Below are positions 15,274-19,365 of a DNA stretch of 64,000 bases, in pieces (the stretch's first letter is position 1; every line of letters begins with the position of its first letter). Source of the DNA: Gordonia sp. KTR9 (lineage in GTDB: Bacteria > Actinomycetota > Actinomycetes > Mycobacteriales > Mycobacteriaceae); assembly GCF_000143885.2 (NCBI RefSeq), contig NC_018581.1:2728001-2792000 (forward strand). Direction: 5' to 3'. Both the position numbers and the translations under genes were made by a program. The notes beneath the pieces were generated by a model, which saw nothing but the letters and a program-made list of their open reading frames with translations, ran no database searches and was not told where the DNA came from.

Positions 15274-16563
15274 TCAGGCGGCGTTGTCGAGTCGCATGGT
15301 GCGTCGGTTGTAGGCGGGTAGTGGTCGTCGTTGTGGGTCGATCGTTGTGGGTGGGACGAGCCAGGGATGCCGGTCGAAGCCCATCACGACGTCCCAGCCG
15401 TGATGGTGGACCTGGGTGTGGCAGCGTTGGCAGAGCAGACACCCGTTGTCGAGGTCGGTGGAACCACCGTCGGCCCAGTGCTCGATGTGGTGGACTTGCG
15501 TATGCGATGGCGGCGCACCACATTTGATGCAGCAGCCATCTCTGACGATCACGGCTTTACGTAGGTGCGCCGGGAACAACCGCCGGGCGTGCCCCATCTG
15601 CAATGGAACCCCCTCACTGTCGAGGACGATCTCGGTCAACGACCCGTCGCACAACAGTCGTTTCGCGGTTGCCTGGCTTACGGATCCAGTCCACGGCAGG
15701 GTTGCCGGATCGGCGCCGGCGGCGGGGATGGTCACCAACAGCTGCATGCGGGGACTGCCGATGCTGTCAATGCCCGCACCCAACGCGGCTTGGTCGAGGA
15801 TCAACTCGAAGGCGTCGGCGCGGCGTTGCTCGGCGGTGCGTCGGTCGTTGGCGCCGTCGGGTTCAGGTCGTGGGCAGGAACGTTCGTCGATCATCGCCAG
15901 GAACTTCTCGCCGACGACCTGGGTGAGGTCGGCGCGGATGTCGATACGGCAGTCGTCGGTGGTGTGGACGTTGACGGTGTTCAACGACGAGTCGTCGGCG
16001 GCGGGGATGGCGGTGTCGGTGGCGTCGGCAAGGGTGTTGGCGATGGTGCGGGCGTGTTCAAGCACTTGTGCCGGTGTCGCGCCGGAGAGTGCTTGGCCGA
16101 GGAGTTCGATCTCGTAGGAACACTTGTCGTTCTCGGAAAGTCCGTCGGGACAGCGTTTGTCGATGTGCGACATCCCGCGGACGATAGCGTCGACGACTTC
16201 CGACGACAAGCGTCCGTCAGTGGCGTGACGAGCCAGGGCGGGCAGCGTGGGTAGGCCGTCGACGCTGCGCATGATGCGGCAGGCGATGGCGGGTGCGTGT
16301 CCCATCTCGATCAAGAGCTGCCGGGTGGTGCCACCTGCCTTGTGTGCGACTTCGAGTTCGTCGAGTTGTCCTGTGTGGGTGACGATCTGGTGATCGACGG
16401 CGTTGCGGATCAACCGCAGCACTTTCAACGCGTCGAATGTTGCTGTGCCCGTGGAGTCGTCGGCGGGCGGTGCGGTCTCGATGAGCTGATCGAGGAGGGT
16501 GGTGAGCTCTGGCATGACTCCAAGGTACAGGAACATTCGTTCGATTTCGAGAAGTTTCCACAA
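15274..16563 (-). CDS. 13E12 repeat family DUF222/HNH endonuclease protein
   Basis: A protein of up to 429 residues; ATG at 16515 (MPELTTLLDQ) is an alternative start giving 413. The N-terminal 260 residues form the helical DUF222 domain typical of the actinobacterial 13E12 repeat family. The C-terminus has an HNH nuclease: RDGCCIKCGAPPSHTQVHHI, HWADGGSTDLDN and CQRCHTQVHHHGW, with the metal-binding Cys pairs and catalytic His residues intact. These genes are multicopy in Gordonia, Mycobacterium and relatives and are suspected mobile or selfish elements. A 21-bp tandem repeat lies just upstream of its start. Confidence 0.92.
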   Translation of the reverse strand: MWKLLEIERMFLYLGVMPELTTLLDQLIETAPPADDSTGTATFDALKVLRLIRNAVDHQIVTHTGQLDELEVAHKAGGTTRQLLIEMGHAPAIACRIMRSVDGLPTLPALARHATDGRLSSEVVDAIVRGMSHIDKRCPDGLSENDKCSYEIELLGQALSGATPAQVLEHARTIANTLADATDTAIPAADDSSLNTVNVHTTDDCRIDIRADLTQVVGEKFLAMIDERSCPRPEPDGANDRRTAEQRRADAFELILDQAALGAGIDSIGSPRMQLLVTIPAAGADPATLPWTGSVSQATAKRLLCDGSLTEIVLDSEGVPLQMGHARRLFPAHLRKAVIVRDGCCIKCGAPPSHTQVHHIEHWADGGSTDLDNGCLLCQRCHTQVHHHGWDVVMGFDRHPWLVPPTTIDPQRRPLPAYNRRTMRLDNAA

Positions 16564-16892: not shown

Positions 16893-17252
16893 TCATCCCT
16901 GTGTGGTGGTCATGCGTACTTCGTGGCAGTCCCAGTCGGGGTCGTAGCGTGTGCCACCGTCGAGTTGGAAGCCGTGTTTGCGGTAGAACGCCACGGCCCG
17001 TGCGTTGTCGCGTACAACCCACAGGTAGGCCGGGACTCCGGTATCGCCGAGCACCGAGGTCATCAATTCAAGGGCCGCGCCGTGGCCGTGATGACGGGGA
17101 ACGACATTCAGCGACCACAGTTCAGTCGATGCGGGAGCGACGCGAGCACCAATGCATCCACGAGATCCGCCAACCCAGGGGTTCCTCAGATGCAGTGCGG
17201 CCACTGACGAGCCGCACACCGCCCGTCCACGAAGCACTCTCGCCAACTGCAC
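16893..17252 (-). CDS. GNAT-family acetyltransferase (possibly short at N-terminus)
   Basis: A 119-residue protein with the GNAT core: strand ELWSLNVVPRHHGHGAALEL (motif A, acetyl-CoA binding), VPAYLWVVRDNARAVAFYRKHGFQ (motif B) and a terminal strand. The only standard start before an in-frame stop is GTG at 17252, so the N-terminal part is shorter than the usual 140-160 residues; the gene may be trimmed. It is transcribed away from the retron region, divergent from the reverse transcriptase. Confidence 0.72.
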   Translation of the reverse strand: MQLARVLRGRAVCGSSVAALHLRNPWVGGSRGCIGARVAPASTELWSLNVVPRHHGHGAALELMTSVLGDTGVPAYLWVVRDNARAVAFYRKHGFQLDGGTRYDPDWDCHEVRMTTTQG

Positions 17253-17325
17253 CAGCGGCAGCCGCCGCAGGTGACCCGCGCACGTCCCGTCGTTCCACCG
17301 AGTTGTCCCACCGCCGTGGCAGCAT

Positions 17326-17502
17326 GTCGGTTGATGAACGACGGGCGAGGTGAGAGTGGATCGTCGCGATCCGTCTCAGGGGTAACCCCTGGGTGCAATT
17401 CACGGCTGGTTCCTGCGTCCGACGCCGGCCCGCACGCTCCACGTGCCACGCGGCGCCGCTGCATCACAGTTCTGGTCACCACACCCGTCGTTCATCACCG
17501 AC
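17326..17502 (+). ncRNA. Candidate retron msr-msd RNA with a1/a2 inverted repeat
   Basis: Arm 17326-17345 (GTCGGTTGATGAACGACGGG) pairs with arm 17484-17502 (CCCGTCGTTCATCACCGAC) over 19 bp with one bulged T. The arms enclose 138 nt. Inside are a hairpin at 17351-17378 (TGAGA/TCTCA outer and GGATCG/CGATCC inner stems), an overlapping CAGGGG-TAA-CCCCTG hairpin (17377-17391), and a GC-rich hairpin at 17423-17455 (CGCCG/CGGCG outer, GCACG/CGTGC inner, loop CTCCA). The right arm ends 28 bp before the reverse transcriptase GTG. Flanking complementary arms, internal hairpins and position match the a1-msr-msd-a2 layout of retron RNAs. Assignment of msr and msd and of the branching G is inference. Confidence 0.72.
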
Positions 17503-17530
17503 AGCCCTCACGCCGACGCACGACGACGCC

Positions 17531-18802
17531 GTGACCGAGCCTTTTCTGGACGCGAACGAGGCGGCCGAAGTCGCTGCGGCGTTTTCGCGGACGTATTCGG
17601 CCTGGACGTGGCCGGAGGTGCTCACCGCGTTGCGGGCGGTTCTGCCCGCTGACGTGACCACGGACGTGGCCGCACGCATCTTCGACCTCTCACCACACGA
17701 ACCGCGCCATCCCGCGAGCGTGATGATCGAGGCCCTGCTGCCATGGACACATCTGGCCCCCGCGGTCGGTCAGCCCATCCTGCTCCACGAGCCGGAGTCG
17801 ACGGGAGCAGTGCTCGACGATCTGCCCGATCTCTACGATGTGGAGCAGTTCGCGCACTGGCTCGACTTCACCGTCCCGGAGCTCGAGTGGTTCGCCGACC
17901 GGGGCCAGTGGTTGCGGACCGCGCGTCTTCCGCTGCGGCATTACCGCATCTGGCGCCGTGAGAAACGCGACGGTGTTCGCGTCATCGAAGCTCCGAAGCC
18001 ACGGATGCGAGAAACGCAGCGGCGTCTGCTCAGACGGCTGGTCGAACGCATCCCGGCACACCCGGCGGCCCGCGGTTTCGTGCCCGGGTCATCGCCCGCT
18101 GCTTTCGCCTGGCCGCACACGGACCGGCCCGCGGTCGTGCGCGTCGACCTACGGCACTGCTTCGAGACCATCACCGTCCAGCGTGTCCGTGCGGTGTTCC
18201 GGGACGCCGGCTATCAGCCACACATCGCGCGCCTGCTCGCCGAATTGTGCACCACGGCAACACCTGTGGACGAACTTCAGGGACTCGATCGCGAACATGC
18301 GGTGCTACTACGGGACCGGCACCTGCCTCAGGGTGCGCCGACCTCGCCGCATCTGGCCAACCTCGTGATGCGACCGCTGGACCGGCGCCTGAACGGCTAT
18401 GCCCGCCGCAACGGTCTCCGCTACACCCGGTACGGCGACGACCTCGCGATCTCCGGCGACGCGATAAATGCCGACCGTGCGCTGTGGACGATGCTCCGGA
18501 TCGTCGAGGACGAGCGTTTCACCGTCCACCCGGGCAAGGTCCAGATCATGTACAGCCATCAGCGCCAACGCCTTGCCGGCCTGGTCGTCAACGACCGACC
18601 CCAGGTCGCGAGATCCGACTACGACAACCTGAGGGCCCTGCTTCACAACGCGCGCCGCCACGGGGCGTCGTCGCAGAATCATGACGACCACCCGGACTTC
18701 CGGGCGCACGTCTACGGACTCATCGCCTGGGTGGGCGCAACGGGGGAGGCGCGCCGACGCCGGCTCCTGGACATGGCCGGCTCGATCGACTGGGACACCT
18801 GA
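17531..18802 (+). CDS. Retron-type reverse transcriptase
   Basis: A 423-residue RT starting at GTG 17531. The N-terminal 90-100 residues are an extension with no recognised domain. The retron-like lead-in DVEQFAHWLDFTVPELEWFAD and EAPKPRMRETQRRLLRRLV follow. Motif A is VVRVDLRHCFETI (Asp about 206), motif B is LPQGAPTSPHLANLVM (about 265) and motif C is YGDD at 301-304, so the catalytic Asp triad is intact. RLAGLVVND sits where retron RTs carry their conserved VTG region. No maturase or HNH domain is present, which argues against a group II intron. The candidate msr-msd RNA lies directly upstream. Confidence 0.9.
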   Translation: MTEPFLDANEAAEVAAAFSRTYSAWTWPEVLTALRAVLPADVTTDVAARIFDLSPHEPRHPASVMIEALLPWTHLAPAVGQPILLHEPESTGAVLDDLPDLYDVEQFAHWLDFTVPELEWFADRGQWLRTARLPLRHYRIWRREKRDGVRVIEAPKPRMRETQRRLLRRLVERIPAHPAARGFVPGSSPAAFAWPHTDRPAVVRVDLRHCFETITVQRVRAVFRDAGYQPHIARLLAELCTTATPVDELQGLDREHAVLLRDRHLPQGAPTSPHLANLVMRPLDRRLNGYARRNGLRYTRYGDDLAISGDAINADRALWTMLRIVEDERFTVHPGKVQIMYSHQRQRLAGLVVNDRPQVARSDYDNLRALLHNARRHGASSQNHDDHPDFRAHVYGLIAWVGATGEARRRRLLDMAGSIDWDT

Positions 18803-18806
18803 GAAA

Positions 18807-18849
18807 ACACCGAAGCATCCCGAACCTCACACTGGGCGCACTTCGGTGT
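18807..18849 (+). terminator. Hairpin after the reverse transcriptase gene
   Basis: ACACCGAAG (18807-18815) pairs with CTTCGGTGT (18841-18849), 9 bp with a 25-base loop. An alternative 7-bp stem CTCACAC/GTGTGAG overlaps it. It starts five bases after the RT stop and separates it from the globin gene. Confidence 0.5.
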
Positions 18850-18894
18850 GAGACCACTGTTACCTCTGCCTTCCGCGCCGCGAGTCCAGCCGCA

Positions 18895-19365
18895 ATGCCA
18901 AGCCACCAAAGTCCGCACATGGACAAGCAACTGCTCGAAGAGAGCCTAGCCCTCGTCGACCTGCCCGACTCGGGACTCACGGTTCGCTTCTACGAGATAC
19001 TGTTCGACCGCTATCCCACGGTCCGTGCGATGTTCGGCCGAGACAGCCGCGCCCAGGCCGAGATGTTGCGGAACGTAGTCGTGTCGGTGGTGAAGCATGT
19101 CGACGACGCCGAGTGGCTGACGACGACGCTGCATGCGCTGGGGCGTCGGCACGCCGGGTTCGGCGTCACGCGGCCGATGTACACGGCAGTCGCGGAATGC
19201 ATGATCGCCGCCATGAGCGAGATCGCCGGCGACTCGTGGACTCCGGCCATGACGCTGGCATGGGACCGTGCGCTCGGCGCGGTCGCGACCATCATGCTCG
19301 ACGGTTACCCGGCAGAGTCCCGGACTCCGGCACGCGCTCCTCGACGCAGCGCCGGCGCGGCCTGA
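18895..19365 (+). CDS. Globin-family protein
   Basis: A single-domain globin of up to 156 residues; ATG 18919 (MDKQLLEESL) is an equally plausible start giving 148. It has the alpha-helical globin pattern FYEILFDRYPTVRAMFG (CD-region Phe) and the proximal-His region LGRRHAGFGVTRPMY, followed by the G/H helices with SWTPAMTLAWDRALG. It resembles the globin part of flavohemoglobins without the reductase domain. Such proteins bind oxygen or NO. It is 92 bp downstream of the RT behind a hairpin, so it is probably not part of the retron. Confidence 0.85.
   Translation: MPSHQSPHMDKQLLEESLALVDLPDSGLTVRFYEILFDRYPTVRAMFGRDSRAQAEMLRNVVVSVVKHVDDAEWLTTTLHALGRRHAGFGVTRPMYTAVAECMIAAMSEIAGDSWTPAMTLAWDRALGAVATIMLDGYPAESRTPARAPRRSAGAA

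Follow-up and report, generated by a model that had tools for sequence, protein, structure and literature searches.

The window analysed here, a stretch of 64,000 nucleotides of Gordonia sp. KTR9 (contig NC_018581.1), carries a reverse transcriptase (RT) gene that is preceded by two complementary arms with hairpins between them. The question raised by this locus is whether RNA and RT together make up a retron and, if so, of which kind. A retron had been proposed in a first-pass annotation, and this reading is supported by covariation in the RNA, by the retron type of the RT and by the linkage of the two. With high confidence we interpret the region from about 17300 to 18845 as a retron cassette of ~1.5 kb, consisting of promoter, a1-msr-msd-a2 RNA and RT, with a predicted msDNA.

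Closing helix and interior of the RNA

The arms had been placed at 17326-17345 and 17484-17502, and on reading the sequence they were found letter-for-letter right, with 14 bp, a bulged T and a further 5 bp. The distance to the RT was also correct, as the GTG at 17531 lies 28 nt past 17502. The pairing therefore stood, but its position had to be adjusted: the conserved helix lies slightly further inside, with the a1 arm at 17332-17353 and the a2 arm at 17476-17497 (both + strand). In an ungapped helix search 20 of the 22 positions of these arms were paired, and covariation and arm-swap pairing support both of them. Six inner pairs of this helix had been overlooked; relatives keep the inner pairing as far as A17353-T17476. 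By eye, the closest relatives retain the 5 bp at the outer end (17326-17330 with 17498-17502) only in part.

In dinucleotide shuffles of 17231-17530, none of 500 reached 20 paired positions, and the best gave 19, once. Across the window, 2 of 425 tiles had at least 20 paired positions, and as one of these is the retron's own, one other place in the window equals the match. Thus conservation, rather than length alone, decides on the arms. When arms were swapped between species in 86 RNAs (the 90 model matches described below minus four antisense artefacts), own arms paired with a mean of -36.6 kcal/mol versus -21.9 kcal/mol for swapped arms. The own partner was best or tied in 46 of the 86, among the top five in 72 and below 20th in 4.

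Covariation across relatives carrying the RT, which had been suggested as a check, likewise spoke for the RNA. Of 101 relatives searched with the RT, 38 had a match with an E of 0.001 or less, weak matches included, and thirty loci were retrieved; the first 22 were those with the RNA found by motif, and they were aligned without structure. Over 45 pairs in 22 sequences, 93.3% of the cells were paired, and both partners had changed in 22 of the 45 pairs of this alignment, a1/a2 accounting for 14 of the 22. The covariation score was 0.283 versus a shuffled mean of 0.110, and the observed covariation was reached by 0 of 500 shuffles in four measures and by 2 of 500 in a fifth. When partners were shifted by 1-3 columns, pairing fell to 34-49%; this comparison somewhat favours true over shifted pairings, since window sequence and consensus were the source of the structure. 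In a 90-row alignment, which was fitted to the structure by the model and has four antisense artefacts among its rows, 42 of the 45 pairs changed on both sides, with compensatory changes in every helix. A covariance model built from the 22 sequences was applied to the other eight loci; it was positive for L023-L029 (E 5e-5 or better) and gave no match in L030.

The two hairpins suggested as msr at 17351-17391 were recovered at 17358-17372 and 17375-17393 (+ strand). The first shows covariation in both alignments. The second, a GGGG-loop-CCCC hairpin supported by covariation and conservation, is the most conserved element, its mean pairwise identity across the 22 aligned sequences being 93%. 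A hairpin was also found where the msd had been suggested, at 17423-17455, but its extent is 17420-17458 (+ strand), with an outer stem (17420-17427/17451-17458) and an apical stem (17432-17436/17442-17446) that are supported by covariation. The whole RNA has a folding energy of -91.5 kcal/mol (z -4.5). Folded by itself, the window sequence gives a minimum-energy structure with other pairs in the interior, and the msd hairpin therefore rests on comparison. The complementary DNA has this hairpin as its centroid fold too, with an energy that is not unusual (z 0.46), and the predicted stability of the msDNA was no greater than that of shuffles.

Directly past the a1/a2 helix lies G17354 (+ strand), a guanosine that is invariant in the 22-sequence alignment and in the window has the context GAGA. 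Simon 2019 puts the priming guanosine at the inner end of the a1/a2 stem, either within it or immediately past it, and gives TAGC as the most frequent context, with the variants CAGA, CAGC, GAGC and ACGC. GAGA is none of these five, CAGA and GAGC being nearest; the equivalent context in relatives is, by eye, GAGA, GAGC, AAGC or CAGC. By its position, and by analogy with Simon 2019, G17354 would fit the role of priming (branching) guanosine.

A probable promoter region is located at 17303-17331 (+ strand), with a -10-like CAGCAT at 17320-17325 that is TAGNNT-like in several relatives; transcription from it would begin close to the base of a1. In three of the four relatives with the retron, the homology block that includes RNA and RT begins at 17299-17304, in agreement with this region, and in the fourth at ~17141. 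A search of the locus found neither a sigma-70 consensus promoter nor a terminator. The RNA is strongly conserved in sequence among relatives. No matching RNA was found with 4227 Rfam models at 17000-19000 of the window, where the single match was at chance level and elsewhere, or in four distant loci, which gave only chance-level matches elsewhere.

The reverse transcriptase and its linkage to the RNA

The RNA and the RT occur together. When 298 genomes of the host's order were searched with the RNA covariance model alone, 22 had a match, and in all 22 tblastn detected an RT directly downstream. In the own genome the RNA model and RVT_1 each match once, both at this locus. In three plasmid records the RNA lies 6-12 nt ahead of the annotated RT. 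A scan of named genomes with the RT alignment gave at least 574 loci, and the best 80 were taken. With minus-strand and stray matches excluded, the RNA was found upstream of the RT at E<=0.01 in 59 of these best 80 of at least 574 and at E 0.01-1 in 11 of them; the covariance model gave no RNA match in the other 10. The named loci include Dietzia, Rhodococcus, Amycolatopsis, Nocardioides, Planctomycetota, Acidobacteriota, Burkholderia, and Pyxidicoccus and Labilithrix (Myxococcota); Planctomycetota, Acidobacteriota, Burkholderia and Myxococcota are all represented among the 59. With a Pyxidicoccus member as query, 7593 of 7997 scored candidates were at E<=1e-60.

The distribution of the clade is patchy. 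When the phylum was sampled evenly with 246 genomes, RT_outgroup matched in 43, strongly in the own genome only (545 bits, the next reaching 74). Carriage by phages was considered and rejected, as 18 records matched and none of them covered 80%. On Dietzia plasmid pII (46.8 kb; L188 2854-4298) RNA and RT lie between mercury reductase and transposase genes, a setting that suggests that the RNA-RT pair travels. The M. xanthus RT P0148, which PADLOC classes as RT_other and not RT_XIII, has 2-5 matches in all 27 genomes of the Pyxidicoccus genus group. A full-length RNA-model match at E<=0.01 was found in 5 of 13 P0148-type loci (L153, L156, L157, L160 and L165), and the model stayed above E 0.01 in 8 of the 13; the observation belongs to the Myxococcus-group genomes L153, L156-L167 and L170.

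The RT itself (17531-18802, + strand) has 423 aa and a GTG start, in place of which several relatives have ATG. It matches Pfam RVT_1 and was recognised as retron-type by PADLOC and structure searches. PADLOC gave 568 bits for RT_other and 546 bits for RT_outgroup, both over nearly the full length, and 300 bits for RT_XIII. By sequence the best solved structure was Ec86 with 195 bits, the best group II intron protein reaching 53, and rows 1-14 of this search were all retron RTs. An AlphaFold2 model of the RT (mean pLDDT 92) was used in Foldseek, and ranks 1-18 were again all retron RTs. Both by sequence and by fold, the window RT is closest to retron RTs.

Its motifs are YGDD (residues 301-304), FAWPH in region X and LAG in region Y, and N-terminal helices lie within residues 8-68. 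Compared with NAxxH, region X retains A and H and has F for N, and LAG stands where VTG is expected. Among 48 RTs including that of the window, LAG was found in 37, YGDD in 29 and YADD in 17, and region X was FAWPH in 17 and FAAPH in 8. Toro 2014 reports VTG in 47% of its retron-lineage sequences and an identifiable NAXXH in 59%, with H in 100%, A in 87% and N in 62%; both motifs vary within the retron lineage.

The RNA could also be a structured leader that regulates the RT gene, or be bound by the RT, in either case without serving as msDNA template. Its strong sequence conservation would agree with such a role, as would the spacing, a2 ending 33 nt before the RT start in the window and 6-12 nt separating RNA end and annotated RT in three plasmid records. 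We nevertheless consider this unlikely, given an a1-msr-msd-a2 layout whose closing helix of 20 pairs covaries, an invariant G right after that helix and an RT that is closest to msDNA-making RTs. Still less probable is a decayed retron, in which RNA and RT would be remnants whose DNA synthesis has been lost. Two relatives, G006 and G036, do have a stop codon inside the RT match, but in the window the 423-codon frame is open and YGDD intact, and there are compensatory changes among relatives. A DRT-type defence RT using a neighbouring RNA without 2'-5' priming is the least credible of all: DRT2 likewise has a neighbouring non-coding RNA, but NCBIfam Drt2 scored 34.9 bits and the best retron model 149.7, none reaching its curated cut-off, and solved Drt2 37 bits against 195 for Ec86. 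The retron interpretation has on its side an RT of the retron lineage, an upstream RNA with a1/a2 arms around msr and msd, and a conserved guanosine where the a1/a2 helix ends on its inner side, a position that in retrons usually lies within AGC.

Genomic site and search for a partner gene

The unit is present in some relatives and absent from others at one site. In close relatives it occupies a common site with the UvrA-like gene on one side and GT87 on the other; in other lineages it lies elsewhere. The site is empty in six Gordonia genomes, which keep the AraC-like, glyoxalase, UvrA-like, globin and GT87 genes in order and in this stretch have no RT match and no RNA match at E<0.4. The right-hand homology restarts at 18844-18847, 42-45 nt past the RT stop. 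In another Gordonia genome a partial, stop-bearing RT match (G036:C1:1448261-1448833) may mark loss.

Neighbours of the retron in the window are GNAT, DUF222-HNH, UvrA-like, globin and GT87 genes, and comparison of the site showed that they can be separated from the retron or occur in its absence. The GNAT gene (16893-17252) was rejected as partner: it is at the site in three of four retron-bearing relatives and absent in retron-bearing L171, and is therefore separable from the retron. GNAT matches lie left of the retron block, and GNAT is also missing from the six empty sites. The globin gene (18895-19365) is at the same place in the six retron-less genomes and missing from retron-bearing L174, and GT87 too keeps its place in the six genomes without the retron; neither was retained as a candidate. 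The DUF222-HNH gene (15274-16563, - strand) has a tblastn match in four of the six retron-less genomes and in two of the four retron-bearing relatives.

Among 18 neighbourhoods (16 from Gordonia, two from others) the RT alone was common to all, the next family occurring in 5. In the best 80 of at least 574 named loci, the largest two non-RT families were found 6 times each, and neither is general. Judged by eye, a pentapeptide-repeat-like protein lies downstream of the RT in 6 of the 80 (L088 7754-8461, L120 9249-10019, L081, L089, L095 and L097), and a DNA polymerase III alpha-like protein ~3.4 kb upstream of the RT match in 6 (L080, L081, L088, L089, L091 and L123). The N-terminal domain of the RT was considered as effector and rejected, having no fold match in the PDB (best E 1.1). 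Twenty loci were hand-picked from the 80 for this domain, and 5 have no room for it, four from Amycolatopsis and one from Kutzneria; a fifth Amycolatopsis locus, L097, has room. Absent from some Amycolatopsis and from one Kutzneria member, the N-terminal helical domain is not a general answer.

As the retron has no stably linked partner gene, the complex of RT, RNA and DNA probably works by itself or on a target whose gene lies elsewhere. Retrons of known function mostly serve phage defence with a linked effector, and phage defence is the default guess here. A review notes that some retrons have no clear link to nearby effectors, so the absence of a partner is not unheard of.

Proposed product and closest known systems

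By its anatomy the RNA suggests the following course. The transcript would fold with a1 pairing to a2, the RT would bind the msr hairpins, and the 2'-OH of G17354 would serve it as primer. The msd, which we infer to be the 17420-17458 hairpin with its flanks, would be copied from ~17475 leftwards through the hairpin. The largest span likely to be copied into msDNA is 17395-17475 (- strand, starting opposite 17475), and the product would be a branched RNA-DNA with a DNA part of at most ~80 nt.

The evidence is convincing for a retron without numbered type or evident effector; this kind of system is already known. The idea of an undescribed type was borne out in that no numbered PADLOC type fits best and Rfam lacks the RNA, but not entirely, as PADLOC RT_other and RT_outgroup (PDLC02949, PDLC03740) do fit the window RT. 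Neither model belongs to a numbered type. With the two of them, scores of 449-554 bits were obtained for six relatives of other groups (Myxococcota, Planctomycetota, Burkholderia and other actinobacteria), and the order of PADLOC models is the same as for the window RT. The best numbered type, RT_XIII, reached 300 bits versus 568 for RT_other, and no effector gene is evident nearby. In the literature searched, no paper describing this RNA was recognised; it may nevertheless already be catalogued in Mestre 2020 or among the PADLOC msr-msd models. Tentatively, we see here a multi-phylum, effector-less retron clade near myxobacterial type XIII with its own msr-msd RNA family, in which the complex itself or a protein encoded elsewhere would do the work. 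A clade of many members that keeps RNA and RT together, with no steady partner, makes the purpose of msDNA testable in a two-part system, and it offers actinobacterial retrons for DNA production.

Near type XIII, the 485-aa RT of L169 and the 427-aa RT of L168, which from sequence and length we take to be those of Mx162 and Mx65, have an N-terminal extension like the window RT. Their identity to it is 35% over 336 columns (Mx162) and 41% over 271 columns (Mx65). Unlike the window RT, they score best with RT_XIII (510 and 435 bits; RT_other ~300), and their loci have no match of the window's RNA model. An identity of the window retron with Mx65 was rejected, as the L168 RT is best in RT_XIII and its locus is without an RNA match. 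For Mx65, Simon 2019 gives the priming context GAGC and a substituted N in region X. The best solved match to the window RT is Retron-Eco1 (Ec86). A solved complex of Ec86 contains its effector, whereas the window retron is without a linked one; the order a1-msr-msd-a2-RT, as given in Simon 2019, is the same in both.
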